Below the pieces are notes generated by a model. That model worked only from the letters and a program-made list of their open reading frames with translations, did no database searches and was not told the origin of the DNA. DNA of 64,000 bases. It comes from Pseudarthrobacter sp. NIBRBAC000502772 (GTDB taxonomy: Bacteria > Actinomycetota > Actinomycetes > Actinomycetales > Micrococcaceae). The DNA is taken from contig NZ_CP041188.1 of assembly GCF_006517235.1 (NCBI RefSeq), positions 62,001-126,000 of the forward strand, in the 5' to 3' direction. Shown here piece after piece: positions 14,622-29,628 of the stretch. A program made the position numbers and the translations under genes. Each line of letters begins with the position of its first letter. Within the stretch, counting starts at the first letter, position 1.

Positions 14622-15350
14622 TCAGGCCAGAGCGCCTTTGATGAGCAGGCTCACCCCGGCAACCAGACACAGGCTGAGGGCCGCGGGACGGAGGGCGGCG
14701 GCGGAAATCCGCTTCACCACCGGCCGCGATGCCAGCGCCCCGAGGGCAACGCCCGGCAGCAGCCAGCCGGTGAGCAGCAGCTCCTCCGTGCCGAAGGAAC
14801 CGGCGCCCGCCAGGGCGAGCAACGAGACCAACGACGAAACCAGAAAAAACAGGGAGAGGTTGGCACGGTACCGGGCCGGGTCTTCGCTCCGGTAAACCAC
14901 CACAAGCGGCGGCCCTGAGGTGGAGGCAACCGTACCCAGGACTCCGCCGAGCAGGCCGGCCGTGAACAGGGAGAAGCGGTCTTGCGGGATGCGGAACCCT
15001 GTGAGTCCGGTGAGCACGCTGGCCACCACCAGCCCGCCCACAATCATACCGGTCCATTTGCCGTTCAGCAGGGGCAGCACACACAGTCCGGCAACGGCAC
15101 CGGGCAGGCACCCGGCAATGGCCAGCTTGAGATCCACGTGCCGCAGCCCCCTCCGGTTCTGCCAGCTCACGAACAGCATGACCACCACCGACACGAGAAG
15201 CAGCGGGCCGGGCACCAGCTGCGGGCTGATCATCAGCAGCAGCGGCGAGGAGACGATGCCGAATCCGGACCCGGTGCCGGCCTGTGCCACCACAGCGACG
15301 GCAACTATGAGAGCCGCGATGATGAGTTCCGTGGTGGTCATGGTGTCCAT
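14622..15350 (-). CDS. tauE: TauE/SafE family sulfite exporter
   Basis: 242-residue membrane protein with about eight hydrophobic segments in two similar halves. Family features are AGTGSGFGIVSSPLLL near residues 23-38 and TSGPPLVVVY near 148. TauE/SafE proteins move sulfonates or sulfite across the membrane. Two bases separate it from the yeiH-like stop, and it ends the tpa-pta-yeiH-tauE transcription unit. This context makes export of sulfite released by Xsc the likely job. Direction and substrate are inferred from context. Confidence 0.85.
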   Translation of the reverse strand: MDTMTTTELIIAALIVAVAVVAQAGTGSGFGIVSSPLLLMISPQLVPGPLLLVSVVVMLFVSWQNRRGLRHVDLKLAIAGCLPGAVAGLCVLPLLNGKWTGMIVGGLVVASVLTGLTGFRIPQDRFSLFTAGLLGGVLGTVASTSGPPLVVVYRSEDPARYRANLSLFFLVSSLVSLLALAGAGSFGTEELLLTGWLLPGVALGALASRPVVKRISAAALRPAALSLCLVAGVSLLIKGALA

Positions 15351-15352
15351 TC

Positions 15353-16465
15353 CTAGATGAATTGCACTCCCACGTAGGCGAGTACACCGATGAGGCCCCA
15401 GGAGAGCATGGCGACGACGACCGCCCTGCCGCTGGTGTGAAGAATTGACCGTATTTGCACGGACGCTCCCAGCCCGAACAGCGCCGCAGCGAGCAGAAGG
15501 TCCTGCGCGAGCGCAGCACCTTCCAGGACCGCATGCGGCAGGATTCCCAGCGTCCGCAACACGATCATCGCCATGAACCCGGCCACGAACAGCGGGATCA
15601 GGGGTGGGAATTTGAGCTTGCCTTCTTCGATGCCGGCGGCCGCCTTGCTGTGCTGGGAACGCTTGCGCCGGGAACGGTTGCGGCAGCGCTGCACCAAAGC
15701 GGCAGCGGTGACCATCGGGGCGAGCATCAGGACACGGGTGAGCTTGATGACCAGGGCCCCGGCCAGGGCCGCGGTGCCTGCCGTCTGTGCCGTCGCGACA
15801 ACCTGCCCCACGTCATGGACGCTGGCCCCCACCCAATGCCCGAACTGCACCCCGTCCAGGCCGAGAGGACCCTTGAGGGCCGGCAGCACAGCGATGGCAA
15901 GGGTTCCGCACAGGGTCACGAGCGCGATGGGCACCACGGTCCCGCGGTGATCCGTCCTGGTCACTCCGCTCATGGCCCCGATAGCGGAGGCGCCGCAGAT
16001 GGAAAAGCCTGCGGCCAGGAGCAAAGGCTGGTCTCCCGGAAGCCTGAAAGCCTTGCCCAGCAGCAAGGTGCCCACGAAGGTCAGCAGCACGATGCCCACC
16101 ACGATCCCCAGTGTCGCCCAACCGAGGGCCGCGACGTCTATGAGGCTCAGCTTCAGTCCGAGCAGCACGATTCCGAGCCTCATGAACCTCTTGGCGGCCA
16201 GCACCAGCCCGGGCTGCATGACTCCTTCGACTGCCGGGCCGATCCCGGGCAGGTTGGCGGAAAGGATGCCCAGGATGACGGCCACCGTGAGGAAGGGGAG
16301 CACCGGGACGGCCGCGTGGACAAGCCAGGCGCCGGCCACCGCAGCGGCCGCCAGTGCGAGCCCGGGCAGCCGCCTGTCCCGCAGGCCTCGCGGGAGAAAT
16401 CCACGCTGTTTGCCGTTTCCTTCCGGCTTGTCGCTTCCTACGGGCGTGGCAACGTCTTGTGTCAT
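15353..16465 (-). CDS. YeiH/UPF0324 family putative sulfate or sulfite exporter
   Basis: 370-residue membrane protein with about ten hydrophobic segments. Typical YeiH features are the [15 protein letters not shown] segment near residue 95, [12 protein letters not shown] near 153 and the [15 protein letters not shown] segment near 215. The family is often annotated as putative sulfate exporter and occurs in sulfonate clusters. Its ATG overlaps the stop of the pta reading frame (ATGA), and the TauE-like gene follows two bases after its stop. A second exporter type in one operon is notable. Confidence 0.82.
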
Positions 16466-17653: not shown

Positions 17654-19018
17654 TTAGGGCTGGATGGCCTTCTCGATGTCGGTGAGCATGCCGTCCACAC
17701 CATGCAGCAGCGCGGACAGGACCTCTGCGTCGGCCACTAGCGGCGGGGAGATCATGATCATGGTGGCACCGCGGTCGTCCCCGCGCAGGATCACCTTGGT
17801 CCGCTTGAAGGACTCAGGAAGGACTTCGCGAAGGACCTTCAGCGACTCGGCTTGGGTCAGTTCGCGGCCGCTGAAACTGTCCGCCATGAGTTCGATCGCG
17901 TAGAAGAAGCCCGTGCCCCGGACTGCCTTGACGCAGCGGTGCGAGTTCTTCAGGGATTCCAGGGCCTCCATGAGCTTCGGACCCTGTTCCTGGACGTTTC
18001 CCAGGACGTTTTCGTCCCGCATGGCGGTGATGTTGGCGACCGCGACGGCGGTGGAGACCGGGTGCCCGCCCCAGGTGGCCCCGTGCGTGAAGACGCCGCC
18101 CGTGGAGGAGTTGAACAGCTCCTGGACCAGCTGCTCGCGGACGATCAGGCCGCCCAGGGGTGCGTAGCCGGAAGTGGAACCCTTGGCGAACGTGACCAGG
18201 TCCGGGACCACGCCGGTGACGCCGTAGCCGAAGAAGTGGCCAAGCCGGCCGAAGGAGCAGATGACTTCATCGGAGACCAGGAGGATCCCGTACTTGTCGC
18301 ACAGTGCGCGCAGGGCCGGCCAGTAGCCCTCAGGTGCCACGAGGGCTCCGCGGCCGTTCTGGACCGGCTCGACAAAGATGGCCGCAACGGTTTCCGGGCC
18401 CTCTTCGAGGACCACCCGCTCAATGGCGCGGAAGCAGTCGAGCTCCGTGACCGGGCCGCAGTCGCCGGTGAAACCGAGGGTGTTCGGGACGCAGCGGATT
18501 CCCGGCAGGAGCTCGCCGAACGGTTCCTTGATCTTGGGCAGCTGCGTGATGGACAGGGCACCCATGGTGGTGCCGTGGTAGGCCATGTCGCGGCTGATGA
18601 CTTTGGTGCGCTGCGGCTGGCCCTGGCTGCGGAAGTACTGGCGGGCAAACTTCAGGGCCGTCTCCACGGCCTCGGAGCCGGAGTTGACGAAGAACGTGGT
18701 GCCCAGGTCGCCGGGGGCCAGATCCGCGATGAGCGCGGCGGCCTCAATGGCCGGCGGGTGTGCCGAGCCCCAGTTGGAGGCGTAGGCCAGGGTGCTGATC
18801 TGCTCACTGGCAGCCTTGGCGATGTCCTGGCGGCCGTGGCCCATGTTTACGCAGAAGAGCCCGGCGAGGCCGTCCAGGTAGCGGTCCCCTTCGGTGTCGA
18901 TGAGGTAGCTGCCTTCGCCCCGGACAAAAATCGGGAACTCGCTGTCCCAGGTGTCCTTGCGGGTGAAATGGGGTCCGAGGTGGCGCCGGGCCTGGGCCCG
19001 GAGTGTGGTGGCGTCCAA
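17654..19018 (-). CDS. tpa: taurine-pyruvate aminotransferase (class III)
   Basis: 454-residue PLP enzyme. It should transfer the amino group of taurine to pyruvate, giving sulfoacetaldehyde and alanine. Class III features: FFVNSGSEAVETALKFAR near 109-126, LLVSDEVICSFGR with D250, and the PLP Lys in FAKGSTSGYAPLG (K279). TTG at 19018 is the start: GAAGGAG lies seven bases upstream and no nearer ATG exists. It is divergent from alanine dehydrogenase and first in the tpa-pta-yeiH-tauE unit. The sequence alone allows other omega-amino donors; neighbouring xsc and ald make taurine most likely. Confidence 0.88.
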   Translation of the reverse strand: MDATTLRAQARRHLGPHFTRKDTWDSEFPIFVRGEGSYLIDTEGDRYLDGLAGLFCVNMGHGRQDIAKAASEQISTLAYASNWGSAHPPAIEAAALIADLAPGDLGTTFFVNSGSEAVETALKFARQYFRSQGQPQRTKVISRDMAYHGTTMGALSITQLPKIKEPFGELLPGIRCVPNTLGFTGDCGPVTELDCFRAIERVVLEEGPETVAAIFVEPVQNGRGALVAPEGYWPALRALCDKYGILLVSDEVICSFGRLGHFFGYGVTGVVPDLVTFAKGSTSGYAPLGGLIVREQLVQELFNSSTGGVFTHGATWGGHPVSTAVAVANITAMRDENVLGNVQEQGPKLMEALESLKNSHRCVKAVRGTGFFYAIELMADSFSGRELTQAESLKVLREVLPESFKRTKVILRGDDRGATMIMISPPLVADAEVLSALLHGVDGMLTDIEKAIQP

Positions 19019-19249: not shown

Positions 19250-20371
19250 ATGAAGATCGGCATCCCGAAGGAAATCAAGTCCCACGAATACCGAGTAGCC
19301 GTCACGCCGGCCGGCGTCCACGAGCTCGTCGCCCACGGGCACGATGTGTTTATTGAGGCCGGCGCCGGAGAAGGCTCGTCCATCTCCGATGACGCCTACA
19401 CGGTAGCGGGAGCCGCCATCCTTCAGACGGCCGACGAGGTCTGGGCCGCCGCCGATCTGCTGCTCAAGGTCAAGGAGCCGATCGCGCCGGAATACCACCG
19501 CATGCGGCCGGATCTGACGATCTTCACCTACTTGCACCTGGCCGCCGACGAGGCCTGCACCCGGGCCCTGCTCGACGCCGGCAGCACCTCCATTGCCTAC
19601 GAGACGGTCCAGCTCGAAGACGGCTCGCTGCCGCTGCTGTTCCCCATGAGCGAAGTGGCCGGCCGGCTGGCTCCCCTGGTGGGCGCACAGTGCCTGACCC
19701 GCCCCGAGGGTGGCCGCGGCGTGCTGATCGGCGGCGTCTCCGGTGTGGCACCGGCCCGCGTGGTCATCATCGGCGCCGGTGTGTCCGGCATGAACGCCGT
19801 TGCCGTGGCTGCCGGCATGTGGGCGGACGTGGTCCTCTTCGACAAGAACGTGGACAAGCTGCGCGCAGCGGACCGCATGTACCAGGGCCGGGTCCGCACC
19901 CTCGCCGCCAACCAGCTCGCCATCGAGCAGGAGGTCATCCAGGCCGACCTCGTCATCGGCGCCGTGCTGGTCCCCGGGGCCAAGGCGCCCAAGATCATCT
20001 CCAACGAACTGGTCTCCCGCATGAAGCCCGGCAGTGTCTTGGTGGACATCGCCATCGACCAGGGCGGCTGTTTCGAGGACTCGCACCCCACCACGCACCA
20101 GGAACCCACCTTCCGCGTCCACGGCTCGGTCTTCTATTGCGTGGCCAACATGCCGGGCGCCGTACCCCACACCTCCACCTACGCGCTGACCAACGTCACA
20201 CTGCCGTACGTGCTGCAGATCGCCGACAAGGGTGTGGAGCGGGCCGTGGCCGAGAACGCGGCACTGCGCGCAGGCCTGAGCACCCTGGGCGGGCGCCTGA
20301 CGAACGCGGCCGTCGGCGCAGCCCACAGCATCGACGTCGCTGATGCACTCGAATCTTTGGCCCGTAGCTAA
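19250..20371 (+). CDS. ald: alanine dehydrogenase
   Basis: 373-residue NAD-dependent enzyme. It oxidises alanine made by Tpa back to pyruvate and releases ammonium. Pyruvate-site residues R15, K75 and H96 sit in the expected places, and the NAD-binding loop IIGAGVSGMNAV lies near residue 170. The ATG at 19250 follows GGAG and begins the conserved MKIGIPKEIK. The frame stays open far upstream, antisense to tpa, but that part is not coding. A strong hairpin terminator follows. Pairing with tpa gives an amino-group cycle that needs only catalytic pyruvate. Confidence 0.95.
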   Translation: MKIGIPKEIKSHEYRVAVTPAGVHELVAHGHDVFIEAGAGEGSSISDDAYTVAGAAILQTADEVWAAADLLLKVKEPIAPEYHRMRPDLTIFTYLHLAADEACTRALLDAGSTSIAYETVQLEDGSLPLLFPMSEVAGRLAPLVGAQCLTRPEGGRGVLIGGVSGVAPARVVIIGAGVSGMNAVAVAAGMWADVVLFDKNVDKLRAADRMYQGRVRTLAANQLAIEQEVIQADLVIGAVLVPGAKAPKIISNELVSRMKPGSVLVDIAIDQGGCFEDSHPTTHQEPTFRVHGSVFYCVANMPGAVPHTSTYALTNVTLPYVLQIADKGVERAVAENAALRAGLSTLGGRLTNAAVGAAHSIDVADALESLARS

Positions 20372-22056: not shown

Positions 22057-23967
22057 CTACACGTAGTCCTTGTACTTCTCGAGCGTGCGGACCGGCTTCG
22101 CGAGGGCATCGCGGCGGAAGGGGTCTCCCAGTTCGCGGGTGCACATAATCTCGATGACCGTGGTCTTGCCCTCTTCCATCTGGGCGGCGAGCGCGCGCTT
22201 GAGCGCGGGGCCCACCTCGTCGAGCTGGTCGACCACGATGCCTTCGGCTCCCATGGTCTGGGCCATGGCGGCGAAGCTCTCGCCGTTGTCGAGTTCTCCG
22301 GCGATGAAGCGGCGGTTGTAGAACTCCACCTGGTTCTTCTTCTCCGCACCCCACTGGCGGTTGCGGAAGACGACGGCGGTAACCGGGATGTCGTGCCGCA
22401 CGGCGGTGAGGACTTCGCCCATGCTCATGGCCCAGGCACCGTCGCCGGCGTAGGCCACGGCGGGACGGTCCATGGCTGCAGCCTTGGCGCCAATCATGGT
22501 CGGCAGGGCGTAGCCGCAGTTGCCGAAGCTCATCGGGGCGAAGAAGCTGCGGGGTTTCTCGAAGCGCAGGTAGCTGTGGGCCACGGAGTTGATGTTGCCG
22601 ATGTCCGTGGAGATCATGACGTTCTCCGGCATCGCCTTCTCCAGCTCGCGGAGCACCTGGCGCGGGGACAGCCAGTTGCCGTCCTCGTTCTTGTGCTCCT
22701 CGAGCATATCGAGGCTGTACTCATCCTTTTCGTGCGTCCACGCGGTGAGTTCCTCTTCCCAGCTTTCCTTCTCCGCCTTGATGGTGGCGGCACGCCCGGC
22801 CTTCGTGGCGTCGCAGGCGAGGGTGAGCTGGTCCAGGCGCTTGCTCAGCTCGAGTGCCACGGCTTTGGCATCGCCGCAGATGCCCACGCTGATCTTCTTG
22901 ACCAGGCCCAGCATGGTGTGGTCGGCGTCGATCTGGATGATCTTCGCTTCGGTGGGCCAGTACGCCTGGCCGTACTGCGGCAGGGTGCCGAACGGGCCCA
23001 GGCGGGTGCCGAGGGCGATCACGACGTCGGCCTGGGAGATGAGCTTCATGCCTGCCTTGGATCCCTGGTAGCCCAGCGGACCGGCCCAGAGCGGGTGGCT
23101 GGCCGGGAAGGAGTCGTTGTGCTGGTAGCTGTTGACCACCGGGGCGCCCAGGCGTTCGGCCAGGGCTTTGCATTCCTCGACGCCGTCGGCCATGACCACA
23201 CCGCCGCCGGAGACAATCACGGGGAACTTGGCCGTGGCGAGCAGGGCTGCTGCCTCGTCCAGGCTCTTGGTACCGCCGGCGCCTCGATCCACGCGGCGCG
23301 GCTGCGGGATCTCGACAGTTATCTCCCCGTAGAAGTAGTCACGCGGGATGTTCAGCTGCGTGGGTCCGTTTTCAGACATGGCGCGGTCGAAGCAGCGGCC
23401 GGTGAATTCGGCCATGCGGGCCGGGTGGGTCACGTGGCCCTGGTATTTCGTGAATTCCTGGAACATGGGCAGCTGCTTGGCCTCCTGGAAGCCGCCGAGG
23501 CCGATGCCCGTGGTGCCGGCTTCCGGCGTCACGATGACCACGGGGCTATGCGCCCAGAATGCCGCGGCGATGCCGGTGACGCAGTTGCTGATGCCCGGTC
23601 CATTCTGGCCGATGACCACGCCGTGGCGTCCGCTGGCACGGGCATAACCGTCAGCCATGTGGGCTGCCCCCTGCTCGTGGACCACCGGAACCAGGCGGAT
23701 GCCTGCGGGGGCGAAGATGTCCATGGCGTCCATAAAGGCTGAACCCATGATGCCGAAAATGTCGGTGACGTCGTTGGCGACCATCGTCTCCACGAAGGCC
23801 TCCGACGGTGTCATTTTCTGCACGCCCTTGGCGACTTCGCGGGCGGCCTTGGCCGGTGCTGCCTGGGCCGGGGCGTCTTTGCCCTGCCCCGCGGATGAGT
23901 CGGTGACGAGCGCTTCTGCCGTGCCGTCGTTGGCAACGGATGAGAGTTCGACGGTGTCTTGGCTCAT
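22057..23967 (-). CDS. xsc: sulfoacetaldehyde acetyltransferase
   Basis: Thiamine diphosphate enzyme that splits sulfoacetaldehyde with phosphate into acetyl phosphate and sulfite, the desulfonation step. Key features: catalytic Glu E98 in VVHEQGAAHMADGYAR, the central nucleotide-like domain, and the ThDP/Mg motif GDGAWAMSMGEV at 508 ending in FRNRQWGAEKKNQVEFY, which is characteristic of Xsc. The 636-residue length includes about 51 extra N-terminal residues, rich in Ala, Lys and acids, before the usual start (MTPSEAF). GGAGGAGGAG precedes the ATG at 23967, favouring the long form. It is divergent from iclR and has inverted repeats in its promoter. Confidence 0.96.
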   Translation of the reverse strand: MSQDTVELSSVANDGTAEALVTDSSAGQGKDAPAQAAPAKAAREVAKGVQKMTPSEAFVETMVANDVTDIFGIMGSAFMDAMDIFAPAGIRLVPVVHEQGAAHMADGYARASGRHGVVIGQNGPGISNCVTGIAAAFWAHSPVVIVTPEAGTTGIGLGGFQEAKQLPMFQEFTKYQGHVTHPARMAEFTGRCFDRAMSENGPTQLNIPRDYFYGEITVEIPQPRRVDRGAGGTKSLDEAAALLATAKFPVIVSGGGVVMADGVEECKALAERLGAPVVNSYQHNDSFPASHPLWAGPLGYQGSKAGMKLISQADVVIALGTRLGPFGTLPQYGQAYWPTEAKIIQIDADHTMLGLVKKISVGICGDAKAVALELSKRLDQLTLACDATKAGRAATIKAEKESWEEELTAWTHEKDEYSLDMLEEHKNEDGNWLSPRQVLRELEKAMPENVMISTDIGNINSVAHSYLRFEKPRSFFAPMSFGNCGYALPTMIGAKAAAMDRPAVAYAGDGAWAMSMGEVLTAVRHDIPVTAVVFRNRQWGAEKKNQVEFYNRRFIAGELDNGESFAAMAQTMGAEGIVVDQLDEVGPALKRALAAQMEEGKTTVIEIMCTRELGDPFRRDALAKPVRTLEKYKDYV

Positions 23968-24020: not shown

Positions 24021-24035
24021 GGAACGTAGCGTTCC
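24021..24035. promoter_or_regulatory. IclR-type operator in xsc/iclR intergenic region
   Basis: GGAACG-TAG-CGTTCC is a perfect inverted repeat 54 bases before xsc. A second, weaker copy, GGAACACTGCGTACG at 24102-24116, matches it at 10 of 15 positions and lies 57 bases before iclR. Their placement on both sides of a divergent promoter suits autoregulation by the IclR protein. Binding is inferred. Confidence 0.6.
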
Positions 24036-24172: not shown

Positions 24173-25099
24173 ATGGCTGAGATTCACAGGCTGGGCGAGC
24201 CCGCCCTGCAGGCGCCGACGGAGCTGGCCGGGGACACCCCCACCATGCGGCTGTTCTCCCTGCTGGAACTCATCGCCACCAAGGACCAGCTCTTCACCCT
24301 TCAGGGGCTGGTGGAGGAAACCGGCACACCCAAGCCCACGCTGCACCGCATGCTGCATCAGCTGGAAAGCTCCGGCCTTCTGATCCGGGAGAACAATGGC
24401 CGGCACTACGGCACCGGGGTCCGGCTGCGGCGCATGGCGGAGAATCTGCTGATCAATGACATGCACCACGGCGCACGCCACGCGGTGCTGCGGAACCTGG
24501 TCGCGGAACTGGGCGAGAGCTGCAACGTGACGGCGGTGTCCGGCAGCGAAGTGGTCTACCTGGACCGCATCGAAACCTCCGAACCGCTGCGGATCACGCT
24601 CCAACCCGGCTCCCGGGTGCCGGTGCACTGCTCGGCCAGCGGGAAGATGATCCTCTCCCAGCTCAGCCCGGCACAGCGCAGGCGCCTCATTGCCGCCGCG
24701 CCGCTGGAACGCTACACGAACAAGACCGTGACGGACCCCGAGCTGATCGAGGAGGAACTCCAGCGCGTCCGCCGGGACGGCTACGCGATCGACGACGAGG
24801 AATTCCTCCCAGGCATGGTGTGCGTGGCCGTGCTGGTTCCCACAGCGAACACCGTGTCCAACCTTTGCGTCGCCGTCCAGGCGCCGATCATGCGGCTCAC
24901 CCCCGAGAAGGGACTGAAGCTGCTCCCGGCCCTGCAGCGTGCCGCAGCGGCGATCGGTCTGATCGAGGCCGAGGCCGGTTCCGGCACCGAGGAAGGAACC
25001 GCCGACCGCGGCAGCACGACCGGCGGCAGCACTGCCGGGGCGGCCGGGATCGACGCGGGCCGCACTGACGGCCTGGAGGACGAGTTGTGGACGAGCTGA
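24173..25099 (+). CDS. IclR family transcriptional regulator
   Basis: 308 residues: winged helix at about 24-85 (FTLQGLVEETGTPKPTLHRML) and the IclR effector domain at 100-265 (VVYLDRIE, VPVHCSASGKMILS, DDEEFLPGMVCVAVLVP). The C-terminus has an extra Gly/Ala/Thr-rich tail of about 40 residues. It is divergent from xsc, so it probably controls both xsc and its own operon, perhaps in response to a sulfonate or sulfoacetaldehyde. Its last 13 bases overlap the CobS-like gene, so the three genes iclR-cobS-cobT form one unit. Confidence 0.88.
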   Translation: MAEIHRLGEPALQAPTELAGDTPTMRLFSLLELIATKDQLFTLQGLVEETGTPKPTLHRMLHQLESSGLLIRENNGRHYGTGVRLRRMAENLLINDMHHGARHAVLRNLVAELGESCNVTAVSGSEVVYLDRIETSEPLRITLQPGSRVPVHCSASGKMILSQLSPAQRRRLIAAAPLERYTNKTVTDPELIEEELQRVRRDGYAIDDEEFLPGMVCVAVLVPTANTVSNLCVAVQAPIMRLTPEKGLKLLPALQRAAAAIGLIEAEAGSGTEEGTADRGSTTGGSTAGAAGIDAGRTDGLEDELWTS

Positions 25100-26109
25100 G
25101 CCGCCTGATGCCGGACGAGATGGTTTCAGTCCGCGAGGTGTTCAATCTCGATTCGGACCTCAAAGTGGCGGCCTTCCGGGAAGCCGACGAGCATGTCCCC
25201 GAGGTGGACCCCGCCTACCGTTTCAACCACGACGTCACCCTGGCCATCCTGGCCGCCTTCACCAGGAACCGGCGGATGCTGCTCCAGGGCCTGCACGGCA
25301 CAGGCAAGTCCACGCACATCGAGCAGGTGGCCGCGCGGCTGAACTGGCCCTGTGTGCGGGTGAACCTGGACGGCCACATCAGCCGCCTTGACCTGGTGGG
25401 CCGCGACACCGTGGTGTTGAAGGACGGCAAGCAGGTCACCGAGTTCCAGGAAGGGATTGTCCCCTGGGCCATCCAACGGCCGGTTGCCTTGATCCTGGAC
25501 GAGTACGACGCCGGCCGCCCGGACGTGATGTTCGTGATCCAGCGGCTCCTGGAACGCGACGGCAAGCTGACCCTGCTGGACCAGAACCGGGTCCTTGACG
25601 TGCACCCCGGGTTCCGGCTCTTTGCCACGGCCAACACCGTGGGACTGGGAAACCTCAACGGCATGTACCACGGCGTGCAGCGGCTCAACCATGCGCAAAT
25701 CGACCGCTGGAACATCGTCGCCGCCCTGAACCATCCTCCGGCGGAGGACGAGATCGGGATCGTGCTGGCGCGGGTCCCTGAGCTGGACGACGCAGCCGGC
25801 CGGAAACTGGTGGCGTCCATGGTGGCCGTGGCCAAGCTGACGCGGGACGGTTTCCGGGTGGGCGATCTGTCCACCCTGATGTCCCCGCGCACCGTCATCA
25901 CCTGGGCCGAGAACATCGGGATCTTCGGCGATCCCGGCAAGGCGTTCCAGCTGTCCTTCGTCAACAAGTGCGATGAAGCCGAGCAGCCGCTCATTGCCGA
26001 ATTCTTCCAGCGCTGCTTTGACCGGGAGCTGGAAGCGCCACGGACCTCGGGGTACCTGCCCGCCGAGCTGGCGCCAACCCGCGCCTTCGCTGCCGCCGCG
26101 GCCAGCTAA
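25087..26109 (+). CDS. CobS-like AAA+ ATPase
   Basis: 340 residues closely resembling CobS, the AAA+ subunit of aerobic cobaltochelatase. Walker A is GLHGTGKST at 68-76, Walker B LILDEYDAGRPDVM has D138/E139, and sensor 1 is in LFATANTVGLG. The segments HIEQVAARLNWPCVRVNL and VVLKDGKQVTEF are CobS hallmarks. GTG at 25087 is the start, with GGAGG about eight bases upstream; it overlaps the end of iclR. The CobT-like VWA protein follows nine bases downstream. No CobN or other corrin gene is near, so cobalt insertion is not supported here. A MoxR-type remodelling role for a sulfonate enzyme is an inference. Confidence 0.85.
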   Translation: MDELSRLMPDEMVSVREVFNLDSDLKVAAFREADEHVPEVDPAYRFNHDVTLAILAAFTRNRRMLLQGLHGTGKSTHIEQVAARLNWPCVRVNLDGHISRLDLVGRDTVVLKDGKQVTEFQEGIVPWAIQRPVALILDEYDAGRPDVMFVIQRLLERDGKLTLLDQNRVLDVHPGFRLFATANTVGLGNLNGMYHGVQRLNHAQIDRWNIVAALNHPPAEDEIGIVLARVPELDDAAGRKLVASMVAVAKLTRDGFRVGDLSTLMSPRTVITWAENIGIFGDPGKAFQLSFVNKCDEAEQPLIAEFFQRCFDRELEAPRTSGYLPAELAPTRAFAAAAAS

Positions 26110-26118
26110 GGGCCGCCC

Positions 26119-27918
26119 ATGGCCTCCCTGGCGGAACAGACGGAGCAGGCGGAGAGGGAACGGGCGGAGACCGCCTCCCGGCAGCTCGCAGCCACATCGC
26201 TGCGCCGCCGCAAGCAGACCCTTGAACTGTGCGCCGCAGCCATGCGCGGGCTCAGCGGGCAGGGCGGCCTGCACTTCCGCGGCCCCGCGCTGTACCGGGA
26301 GAGCACCCCGGTGGCCATGCCCGCACCCCATGTCCACCCGGGAACGGACGCCGTTACATTGGACGCCTTCCGCGGCGCGGCGGACGGCATGGCGCTGCGG
26401 CTGCAGCACAGCGATGCCGCTCTGCATGCGGAGTTCTGCCCCGCAACGCCGGCACGAATGCTGGTGTTTGAGATGCTCGAACAGTTCCGTACCGAGTCGC
26501 TGGCCGACGGCGCCATGCCGGGGGTCCGGGCCAACCTGAACCGCCGCTTCCAGCAATGGTCCCGGGATTTCGAGGCGTCCACGCTGGCGGACACGGACCT
26601 GGGACTCATCCTCTTCACCGTGGCCCAGGTCTGCCGGGCGAGGATCACCGCGGAGCCGATGTCCCCGGACTTCGAGGACCGGATTGAATCCACCCGGGCC
26701 GAGCTTGCCCCGCACGTCGGCACGCATCTGGCCGCCCTGCGGCTGGAACGGTTCTCCCAGCCGAGCTTCGGCCGCCATGCCCTCGCCATCGCGGAGACCG
26801 TCGCCGCCATCAGCGAGCACCTGGAAGCCCGGGAAGCGCGGCCCTCCCGTTCCGGCGGCCGCGTGCCGCAGTTCCAGCTGCTCTTCGATCAGGACAGCAA
26901 CGACGACGCCGTCCCCACCGCGGGGTATGGGCGCAGCGATGCGCTGGAAGCCGGAGGCGACGGCTACCGAAAGTTCACCACGGCCTATGACCGCGAGCTC
27001 CAAGCCACGGACCTGGTCCGCGCCGAACTGCTGCGCGGTTATCGGCAGCAGCTGGACGACGACATTGCCAGGCAGGGCATCAACGTGCCCCGGCTGGGCC
27101 GTGCCCTGGGCGCGGCGCTGTCCACGGCCGTCCACGACGGCTGGGACGGCGACGCCATTGAGGGCCGGCTCGACGGCAGCAGGATCGCCCGGCTGGTCAC
27201 GGCATCCGGGGACCGCAGGGTGTTCCGGACCGAACGAATCGAACTCCGGACCGACGCCACGGTGACGTTCCTGGTGGACTGCTCCGGTTCCATGAAGGAG
27301 CACAGCGCCGCCGTGGCCGCGCTGGTGGACGTCTACGCGCGCGCCCTGGAACTGGCGGGGGCCCGATGCGAAGTCCTGGGCTTCACCACAGCCGCCTGGA
27401 ACGGCGGCCGTGCCGGGAAGGACTGGATCCGTACCGGTAGGCCCCCGCATCCGGGGCGGCTCAACGAGGTGCGGCACCTGGTCTTCAAGGACGCAGACAC
27501 CCCGTGGCGGCGGGCCCGCCCGGCCATTGCCGGGCTCATGAAGAAGGACCTATTCCGTGAAGGAGTCGACGGCGAGGCGGTGGACTGGGCCTGCGCGAGG
27601 CTCGCCGATGCCGGGAACGGCACGGGGAACTGCGGCACGTCGAGCAACAGCTCCGAACGGCGGATCCTGCTGGTGGTGTCCGACGGGAGCCCGATGGACG
27701 GCGCCACCGCCCTGGCCAACGACGGCCACTACCTGGAACAGCATCTCCGGGATGTGGTGGCGGCGCACGAAGCCGCCGGCAACGCGGAGATCTTCGGACT
27801 CGGCGTGGGGCTGGATCTCTCGCCGTACTACCGCAGGAACATCACACTGGACCTCTCACGCGGAAGCAGTGCCGCCGTCGTCGGGCAGGTCCTGGCCATG
27901 CTTGCCGGACGCCGCTGA
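26119..27918 (+). CDS. CobT-like VWA domain protein
   Basis: 599 residues resembling CobT. The N-terminal half is alpha-helical and acidic-basic mixed. The C-terminal von Willebrand A domain has the MIDAS DCSGS at 387-391, then CEVLGFTTAAWNGG, PGRLNEVRHLVFK, DTPWRRARP, GVDGEAVDWA and VVSDGSPMDGAT, all close to CobT motifs. In cobaltochelatase, CobT joins CobS to form the ATP-driven chaperone for CobN; here CobN is missing. Pairing with the CobS-like gene and position beside xsc suggest a dedicated client in taurine metabolism. A hairpin terminator follows. Confidence 0.83.
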   Translation: MASLAEQTEQAERERAETASRQLAATSLRRRKQTLELCAAAMRGLSGQGGLHFRGPALYRESTPVAMPAPHVHPGTDAVTLDAFRGAADGMALRLQHSDAALHAEFCPATPARMLVFEMLEQFRTESLADGAMPGVRANLNRRFQQWSRDFEASTLADTDLGLILFTVAQVCRARITAEPMSPDFEDRIESTRAELAPHVGTHLAALRLERFSQPSFGRHALAIAETVAAISEHLEAREARPSRSGGRVPQFQLLFDQDSNDDAVPTAGYGRSDALEAGGDGYRKFTTAYDRELQATDLVRAELLRGYRQQLDDDIARQGINVPRLGRALGAALSTAVHDGWDGDAIEGRLDGSRIARLVTASGDRRVFRTERIELRTDATVTFLVDCSGSMKEHSAAVAALVDVYARALELAGARCEVLGFTTAAWNGGRAGKDWIRTGRPPHPGRLNEVRHLVFKDADTPWRRARPAIAGLMKKDLFREGVDGEAVDWACARLADAGNGTGNCGTSSNSSERRILLVVSDGSPMDGATALANDGHYLEQHLRDVVAAHEAAGNAEIFGLGVGLDLSPYYRRNITLDLSRGSSAAVVGQVLAMLAGRR

Positions 27919-28032: not shown

Positions 28033-29520
28033 TCAGGGGCGGGCCGCCACCGGCTGCTTGTCGGGCTCCTCCTCGAGCCCTTCAGCCGAGGGGTCCAAGG
28101 ACGGATCCCCCGGAAGGTCGGCGGCGTCGTTGCCGGCTTCTTCTCCTGGCTTGCGGCCGTAGCGCCGGCGTAGCTCGTAGCTGAGCAGGATGATCACGAG
28201 CGTCACGCCGCTCATCACGAACTGGGTCTGGGTGCTGGGCAGCAGGGCCATGGCGGCGATGACCAAGAGCATGAGCGCGATGGTTGCGTAGCTCAGCCAT
28301 GGAAACAGCCACATCTTAAGCTTCAGCGCCCCGGGGTCGTCGCGGTCCAGTCTCTTGCGCAGCACCACCTGTGACAGTGCGATCGCCAGGTAGACGAAGA
28401 GCGCCACGGCACCGTAGGAGTTCACCAGGAAGGCGAACACCACATCACCCCACACGTAGACACAGACCACCGAAACGTAGCCCACGGTGGTGCCCAGCAG
28501 GATGGCACGGCGCGGAACGCCGCTCCGTGACAGCTTGGTGAAGAACTTGGGGGCATCGCCGTTGCGGGTGAGCGCAAACAGCATGCGCGAGGTGGTGTAC
28601 AGGGCTGAGTTCAGGCACGAGAGCACTGCCGTGAGGACAATGAAGTTCATGATGGTGGACACCGCCGGGATACCCAGGACGTCCAGCACCGCCGCATAGG
28701 GGCTCACGCCGACGCTCTCGGCATCCCACCTCTGGATCGCCACCACCACGAAGATCGAGCCGACGTAGAAGGTCACCACCCGGGCCACGATGGAGCGCAT
28801 GGCCTTCTTGACCGAACGCTCGGGGTCTTCGGACTCGGCGGCCGCGATGGTGATGATTTCCGCGCCGGTATAGAAGGCCACACAGGGAACGACGGCGGCC
28901 AGCACGGCACCCCAGCCCAGCGGAGTGAACCCGCCGTGGTCAAACAGGTTGCCGATGCCCGGCGTCGACTCGGGCCACAGGCCGGTGATCCACAGTACGC
29001 CCAGCCCCAGGAACAAGACGATGGCCACCACTTTGATGGAGCTGAACCAGTATTCGAACTCGCCGAAGGAGCGGGCCGAAGCCATGTTCGTGGCGCTCAG
29101 TACCACCATCAGGCCCAGGCTGAGCATCCACAACGGAACCATGGGAAACCACAGCTGGATGATCCGGCCACCGGCAATCGCCTCGACTGCCACCACAATC
29201 ACAAAGAAGTACCAGTACATCCAGCCGGTGGCGAATCCGGCCCGCTGCCCCAGCGCCTGGCGTGCGTAGACATAAAAAGAGCCCACCACCGGACGCGCTA
29301 CGGCCATTTCGGCCAGCATCCGCATGAGGAGCAAGGTGATGACACCTGCGATCGCAAACGAGACGATGGCCGCCGGGCCGGTGCTGCTGATAACAACGCC
29401 ACTGCCGACGAACAACCCGGCACCGATGACGCCCCCAATGGCGATCAAATTCATGTGTCTGTTCTTGAGGCCCTTGCTAAGGCCGGCGTTGTCGGCCTGC
29501 CGGGGTTCGGCTTGATACAC
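28033..29520 (-). CDS. APC family amino acid permease, probable taurine uptake
   Basis: 495-residue transporter with twelve predicted membrane helices. The first helix has the APC substrate motif IGGVIGAGLFVGSG, and the ISSTGPAAIVSFAIAG segment follows. It resembles the AAT subgroup (GABA, asparagine, aromatic amino acids). I place the start at GTG 29520 because GGAGG lies four bases upstream; the extension to 29622 is basic and implausible. The C-terminal tail is acidic. It is the only amino acid carrier in the island, so taurine uptake is likely but not shown. A CRP-like palindrome lies about 110 bases upstream. Confidence 0.83.
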   Translation of the reverse strand: MYQAEPRQADNAGLSKGLKNRHMNLIAIGGVIGAGLFVGSGVVISSTGPAAIVSFAIAGVITLLLMRMLAEMAVARPVVGSFYVYARQALGQRAGFATGWMYWYFFVIVVAVEAIAGGRIIQLWFPMVPLWMLSLGLMVVLSATNMASARSFGEFEYWFSSIKVVAIVLFLGLGVLWITGLWPESTPGIGNLFDHGGFTPLGWGAVLAAVVPCVAFYTGAEIITIAAAESEDPERSVKKAMRSIVARVVTFYVGSIFVVVAIQRWDAESVGVSPYAAVLDVLGIPAVSTIMNFIVLTAVLSCLNSALYTTSRMLFALTRNGDAPKFFTKLSRSGVPRRAILLGTTVGYVSVVCVYVWGDVVFAFLVNSYGAVALFVYLAIALSQVVLRKRLDRDDPGALKLKMWLFPWLSYATIALMLLVIAAMALLPSTQTQFVMSGVTLVIILLSYELRRRYGRKPGEEAGNDAADLPGDPSLDPSAEGLEEEPDKQPVAARP

Positions 29521-29628
29521 GTTTCCTCCAAGATGCTCTGACGAAACCCGTTGAAGTGCACTTCGGTGCCCGCGCCACGAAGCGCGAAGCCAGGTCCACC
29601 GGAGGTTCGGACCGTACTGCAATCACTG

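Follow-up and report, generated by a model that had tools for sequence, protein, structure and literature searches.

A CobS/CobT-like AAA+/VWA gene pair associated with one clade of sulfoacetaldehyde acetyltransferase, its putative client

The window analysed here is a stretch of 64,000 nucleotides from Pseudarthrobacter sp. NIBRBAC000502772 (contig NZ_CP041188.1, positions 62,001 to 126,000), in which two consecutive genes encode a CobS-like AAA+ ATPase and a CobT-like protein with a VWA domain. A gene for an IclR-type regulator (iclR) lies on the same strand, and the xsc gene, encoding sulfoacetaldehyde acetyltransferase (Xsc), the key enzyme that releases sulfite from small sulfonates such as taurine, diverges from these three genes. 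The start of cobS (25087) and the end of iclR (25099) overlap by 13 nt, provided that the GTG start is correct, and cobS and cobT are separated by 9 nt. Both open reading frames (ORFs) of the pair are full length. An original prediction, made from the sequence alone, had described this pair by its CobS and CobT hallmarks, its overlap with iclR and the divergent xsc, all of which were recovered; the Walker and metal ion-dependent adhesion site (MIDAS) motifs are intact. It had further proposed a dedicated maturation or reactivation machine, acting either on an enzyme of the taurine pathway or on an unseen metal enzyme.

The CobS-like protein matches the Pfam domains CobS_N (53.3 bits) and AAA_5 (47.5 bits), and the CobT-like protein matches PF11775 (154.2 bits) and PF06213 (78.5 bits). 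Against TIGR01650 the former scores 491.3 bits (cut-off 558.55), and against TIGR01651 the latter scores 280.8 bits (cut-off 759.05). Judged by these scores, both proteins are clear relatives of the chelatase subunits, yet they fall beneath the equivalog cut-offs for true ones. In the CobS-like protein, Walker A (GLHGTGKST, residues 68-76), Walker B (LILDEYD) and the sensor-1 N were identified; the catalytic residues of these motifs are 97-100% conserved among 86 CobS-like sequences, and some small or hydrophobic positions between them vary. The MIDAS of the CobT-like protein (D387-S389-S391, T424 and D522) is invariant in 101 sequences. These alignments left out proteins of less than 0.8 or more than 1.3 times the length of the window protein, duplicates, and sequences with less than 66% (CobS) or 34% (CobT) identity. 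Two features of a MoxR-type system are present: an AAA+ protein in which Walker A, Walker B and sensor 1 are all intact (86 sequences), and a VWA protein whose DxSxS-T-D MIDAS is intact (101 sequences) and whose gene in the window adjoins that of the ATPase.

The folds nearest to the modelled CobT-like VWA domain are the NorD VWA domain and the Rea1 MIDAS. The solved CobT 9uka was not among the listed fold matches of the model, which is no evidence for a different fold. The linker (approximately residues 239-280) is modelled at low confidence. Segment 427-480 is conserved and 46% identical to canonical CobT; this segment and the NorD-like fold are what was observed with regard to a putative VWA finger entering the AAA+ pore. 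The N-domain is 17% identical to its canonical counterpart. The placement of CobT on a tree, which had been suggested with the original prediction, put the window-type proteins in a clade of their own: a single branch (100/100) separates 44 xsc-type from 19 canonical CobT sequences, the xsc-type label also covering six loci that lack a local xsc gene (L066, L067, L068, L076, L081 and L085).

We then searched three genome samples for CobT and Xsc in both directions: the family of the window (read as Micrococcaceae), its class (read as Actinomycetes) and Pseudomonadota, the first two overlapping in at least one genome (G000). In the family, 13 of 149 genomes have a CobT_C domain and 13 of 149 have Xsc, and these are the same 13 genomes, spread over 6 of 32 genera. 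In the class, Xsc was found in 4 of 345 genomes and a strong CobT_C match in the same four; three further genomes have partial CobT_C matches only (18.7-21.7 bits), near the cut-off. The window Xsc itself is a clear member of TIGR03457 (1037.1 bits, cut-off 676.4), a family that falls into two clades with 45-48% identity in our sample; Xsc subgroups have been described before. Both clades occur in Pseudomonadota, where 26 of 398 genomes have Xsc (7 of clade I, 79-80% identity, and 19 of clade II, 45-48% identity). CobT_C was found in 139 of these 398 genomes, with 128 canonical proteins (at least 251 bits), 7 at 141-172 bits, 2 at 94-104 bits and 2 at about 20-26 bits. Clade I Xsc occurs in exactly those 7 genomes whose CobT scores 141-172 bits. 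In the 19 genomes with clade II Xsc, CobT is always canonical (336-393 bits), and its gene is either on another contig than xsc or separated from it by at least 112 kb. Thus, window-type CobT tracks one Xsc clade in all three samples, and only clade I accompanies the pair. In 7 of 10 clade I genomes, CobT and xsc lie about 3.5 kb or less apart. The CobT_C matches of 94-104 bits form a third class, in two genomes without Xsc (G854:C2:587048-587677 and G781:C77:178291-178923), and might belong to a distinct AAA+/VWA pair that serves some other client.

The neighbourhood of the pair was surveyed in 92 loci, of which 80 came from a pattern scan with one genome per species (the best 80 of 308 among the matches listed) and 12 from family mates of the window's strain. 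Many of these loci are closely related (Variovorax, the window's family) and the counts are not independent events; L016 and L106 are apparently the same genome, and L023 lies within G496. Xsc is encoded in 77 of the 92 loci, including one (L098) in which the gene is in two pieces (76 without it). In 58 loci the sequence extends 7 kb or more beyond cobT on both sides, and 57 of these contain clade I xsc. A cobS gene was likewise found in 57 of them, the other (L036) having no cobS ORF over the threshold. A close iclR (at least 58% identity) is present in 46 of the 58, followed by pta (24), sauS-like (18), sauT-like (18), tpa (15) and APC permease genes (13); YeiH-like genes (10), ald (9), tauX (8) and DAO (7) are rarer. 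The sole locus without xsc, L066, carries TctA/TctC transport genes, an aldehyde dehydrogenase, an AMP-binding ligase and TauE (L066:475-11686). It is probably a sulfoacetate cluster, with genes of the kind named sauS and sauT, and a clade I Xsc is encoded elsewhere in its genome. Whether taurine or sulfoacetate is the apparent source of sulfoacetaldehyde, the pair thus accompanies Xsc. The proposal of a pathway enzyme narrows to Xsc as the likely client, since tpa/ald, tauX/DAO and sauS/sauT-like genes are each confined to a minority of loci, and an unseen metal enzyme now appears unlikely. Close homologues without a link to xsc, which had been named as grounds for rejecting the proposal, were looked for among the fully flanked loci and in the three genome samples and not found.

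No match to PF02514 (CobN/ChlH) was obtained in the 4.80-Mb single-contig genome of the window's strain, while 5 of 14 control genomes matched. A CobN encoded elsewhere in this genome, the other ground named for rejection, was thus looked for and not found. A second CobT_C copy was also sought in this genome and none was found besides the single one. CobN is absent from all 12 other carriers in the family; of the 6 Pseudomonadota carriers 4 lack it, as do 16 of the 47 further carriers searched. Overall, CobN is present in 33 of 66 carriers and absent in 33, so the pair does not depend on CobN. The earlier remark that no corrin gene is visible stands, genome-wide, for CobN, the only corrin gene that this check covered.

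According to Tsai et al. (PMC4660213), Rubiscos served by CbbQO have a C-terminal motif that is missing from others, deletion or extension of the Rubisco C-terminus abolishes activation, and an acidic surface residue is the probable ligand of the CbbO MIDAS. Xsc offers the same two kinds of mark for inspection, namely its tail and acidic residues found only in clade I. In an alignment without rows shorter than 560 residues, rows lacking the start motif and duplicates, clade I (82 sequences) and clade II (19 sequences) differ at 77 diagnostic positions. The motif KYxD(Y/F)(V/L) is the exact C-terminal end of 81 of 82 clade I proteins, the remaining one being cut by a contig end, and of none of the 19 clade II proteins. 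As with the Rubiscos served by CbbQO, clade I Xsc is thus a subclass with a distinct C-terminal motif. Clade I proteins also carry an N-terminal tail before the core (columns G 96%, R 80% and Q 79%), whereas clade II begins at the core. By our rule this tail is present in 79 of 82 clade I proteins, the window row (L107) being missed through trimming alone. The clade I xsc at L075:7015-8886, whose product lacks the N-terminal tail seen in most relatives, lies on the cobT strand. The first 40 residues of the window Xsc were considered as a handle and rejected, as they are not conserved; only the stretch directly before the core is. In the Xsc model, pLDDT (predicted local distance difference test) is below 50 at residues 1-40 and 613-629, and the tails are not structurally placed. 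Acidic residues found only in clade I (E60, D80, E149, E199, D349, E399, E404, E441, E443, E548 and E630) are candidate MIDAS ligands.

The gap between xsc and iclR is 205 bp long and contains GGAACGTAGCGTTCC at 24021-24035. The palindrome GGAACNNNNNGTTCC occurs exactly in 23 of 62 xsc-iclR gaps (60-600 bp, iclR with at least 58% identity) and in none of 20 rounds of order-1 random sequences; with up to two mismatches, it is found in 44 of 62 gaps vs. about 8 expected. The window holds a single exact copy, and copies with at most one mismatch are not above chance across it (5 vs. 2.7 expected). The conserved site is probably an operator for IclR that the two transcription units share. The exact palindrome was also seen in relatives from the second phylum, e.g. 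Variovorax L023.

Table 1. Features of the pair, of its putative client and of the surrounding genes (positions in the window)
Feature	Position	Strand	Evidence
CobS-like AAA+ ATPase (motor)	25087..26109	+	Pfam, NCBIfam, match to solved CobS 9ujv, conserved motifs
CobT-like adaptor (N-domain, linker, C-terminal VWA)	26119..27918	+	Pfam, MIDAS, fold match of model
IclR-type regulator, first gene of probable iclR-cobS-cobT operon	24173..25099	+	Pfam IclR_C, 124 bits
Clade I sulfoacetaldehyde acetyltransferase gene (xsc), putative client	22057..23967	-	TIGR03457, co-occurrence, synteny
Palindrome GGAACNNNNNGTTCC, probable IclR operator between divergent xsc and iclR-cobST	24021..24035	.	Intergenic conservation
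C-terminal tail of Xsc (RTLEKYKDYV) with the clade I motif KYxD(Y/F)(V/L)-COOH	22060..22089	-	Clade alignment
Xsc N-terminal tail motif REVAKGVQK, directly before MTPSEAF core	23815..23841	-	Clade alignment
Class III aminotransferase, read as tpa (taurine catabolism context)	17654..19018	-	Aminotran_3; NCBIfam gives aminotransferase family name only
ald, alanine dehydrogenase (context)	19250..20371	+	TIGR00518, 523 bits (cut-off 392)
APC-family (GABA-permease-like) transporter, candidate taurine importer	28033..29622	-	Pfam/NCBIfam
YeiH-like membrane protein, possible sulfite exporter	15353-16465		PF03601
ORF read as TauE-like, possible sulfite exporter	14622-15350		No NCBIfam match

The surrounding genes are listed in Table 1. 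Among them, the APC transporter gene adjoins cobT; its relatives in 13 of the 58 loci and the presence of gabP in TauR regulons (PMC5320631) make a taurine importer possible.

Several known systems resemble the pair. Both of its protein families are those of the cobaltochelatase CobNST, the CobS-like protein matching the solved CobS 9ujv with 452.8 bits over 309 residues and the VWA domains being related; the window-type pair differs in its scores under both NCBIfam cut-offs, its own CobT clade, its link to xsc and the lack of CobN in half of its carriers. The Rubisco activase CbbQ/CbbO (PMC4660213) likewise combines an AAA+ protein with a VWA adaptor that bears a MIDAS, next to an enzyme of central metabolism of which a subclass with a C-terminal motif is the client. 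However, the client here would be a thiamine diphosphate (ThDP) enzyme, the ATPase is CobS-like (CbbQ-type chains reach only 45-46 bits) and an activase role is putative. NorQ/NorD differs in its client, a membrane-bound nitric oxide reductase that receives iron, and in sequence (about 18% identity). Finally, CobS/CobT-like pairs without CobN have been described in archaeal and bacterial tailed viruses (PMC8651126), and differ in being viral.

On the co-occurrence, the synteny and the absence of CobN, the client half of the original proposal is strongly supported, and clade I Xsc is likely the client of the pair. The other half, maturation or reactivation, is inferred from the MoxR AAA+/VWA family, for which ATP-driven remodelling in the manner of NorQD and CbbQO serves as the model (PMC13036017, PMC9976466, PMC4660213). 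Our preferred explanation, with a probability of roughly two in three, is that the pair descends from the CobST half of cobaltochelatase and remodels clade I Xsc as a MoxR-type AAA+/VWA machine. The sequences show that the ATPase and MIDAS motifs are intact, that CobT forms a clade apart, that the pair occurs almost exclusively together with one Xsc clade and in synteny with it, and that an operator-like site is conserved between the two transcription units. In the proposed mechanism, a hexamer of the CobS-like protein would, in the manner of NorQD, enclose the VWA finger of the CobT-like protein within its pore. Xsc would be held by the N-domain and the MIDAS of CobT, probably at its conserved KYxDYV end and at an acidic surface residue specific to the clade. 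A twisting motion driven by ATP would then open the active site of Xsc at the ThDP site, where either ThDP and Mg would be loaded or, as is slightly favoured, a dead cofactor or stalled intermediate would be expelled. Sulfite, a product of Xsc, chemically cleaves thiamine, which would give a rationale for repair; a literature search for such cleavage within enzymes yielded nothing usable. The thiamine thiazole gene thiG belongs to Actinobacterial TauR regulons (PMC5320631), which fits cofactor loss. Repair of a dead active site is a slight preference over first-time cofactor loading. A chelatase motor without its tetrapyrrole partner that repairs Xsc, perhaps by clearing sulfite-damaged or trapped ThDP, would be the first AAA+/VWA activase for a ThDP enzyme, a reading to which we give somewhat less than even odds.

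Several observations weigh against remodelling of clade I Xsc by the pair. Clade II Xsc is found without a window-type pair, so the chemistry of Xsc does not itself require one; and as all clade II genomes have a canonical CobT, help from CobST to clade II Xsc is conceivable. The two clade I proteins of L022 and L075 have no N-terminal tail, and the conservation of the Xsc tails may come from catalysis or oligomerisation instead. CobT and xsc are about 28 kb apart in G787 and about 21 kb apart in G860, and lie on different contigs in G427, a fragmented genome. Moreover, among the 15 carriers without xsc in the locus, Xsc is encoded elsewhere in 6 genomes and was not found in 9 (no match at E<=1e-100). 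These 15 belong to 20 genomes searched for Xsc, together with two carriers already known to have it (L041 and L075) and three genomes with other CobT types (G854, G781 and G844), none of which has a match. In all 9 genomes without Xsc, the contig stops 0-2.2 kb upstream of cobT, at the usual position of xsc; that of L068 also stops downstream, just beyond pta, on the side where some relatives hold xsc. Seven of the 9 are labelled metagenome-assembled genomes. L068 and L076 are not, and Xsc may really have been lost there.

As a sub-case of the remodelling of clade I Xsc, the pair might deliver or check a metal or ThDP at the first assembly of the enzyme, as a maturase without repair. We consider this somewhat unlikely. 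Xsc requires no metal other than the Mg bound to ThDP, related ThDP enzymes acquire this Mg unaided, and clade II has no adjacent pair. In favour of a maturase, the ancestral CobST powers cobalt insertion, and NorQD, the nearest VWA fold match, is an iron-inserting maturase (PMC13036017). In addition, TauR regulons of Comamonadaceae include a protein of the COG523 family (PMC5320631), which holds CobW-like metal chaperones (PMC10206600); this fits a metal step.

It is improbable that the target of the pair lies elsewhere in C2-sulfonate catabolism (a transporter, sulfite oxidation or an upstream dehydrogenase), Xsc merely marking the pathway. L066, with CobST beside an aldehyde dehydrogenase, an AMP ligase and TauE and its Xsc elsewhere, would suit such a client. 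However, none of the upstream enzyme or exporter families counted is constant, within a chosen list of families outside which a constant partner is possible; clade II Xsc genomes have no window-type pair, and the Xsc clade matches the presence of CobST exactly in three samples. Much less likely still, the pair could be a passenger with a general stress or regulatory role in a horizontally moving xsc-iclR-cobST cassette, as the patchy spread over two phyla and the conserved gene order might suggest; but its motifs remain intact, and it stays with xsc despite rearrangement (xsc is downstream of cobT in 9 of 76 loci, and a close iclR is missing in 12 of 58). A function in B12 synthesis or with another tetrapyrrole chelatase whose CobN or ChlH is encoded elsewhere agrees with the clear CobS/CobT homology and with the CobN-family gene in half of the carriers, and is the least credible of all, given the other half without CobN (including the window's genome and the 12 family carriers), the distinct CobT clade and xsc as the constant partner.

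No paper linking Xsc to CobS/CobT was found in the literature searched, which left subscription journals largely outside, and a remark in the older taurine literature is possible. In the available text of PMC4334477, PMC5997447, PMC2265553 and PMC3087415, words for both sides occur in unrelated contexts; that of PMC5320631, on the TauR regulon, has no mention of CobT, chelatase or IclR, and that of PMC3746432 none of CobT or chelatase. Fold and motor are known, and the proposed client is new. If remodelling of clade I Xsc is true, a ThDP enzyme would be a new class of client for the small AAA+/VWA set, and the cobaltochelatase motor could be redirected by a change of adaptor. This would explain the 'cobaltochelatase' genes in genomes without CobN and would call for a correction in annotation, cobST alone not being a valid B12 marker. 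It would also allow a test, at the level of genes, of the reason for which one form of Xsc, in the carbon cycle of taurine and sulfoacetate, is accompanied by a helper and the other is not.

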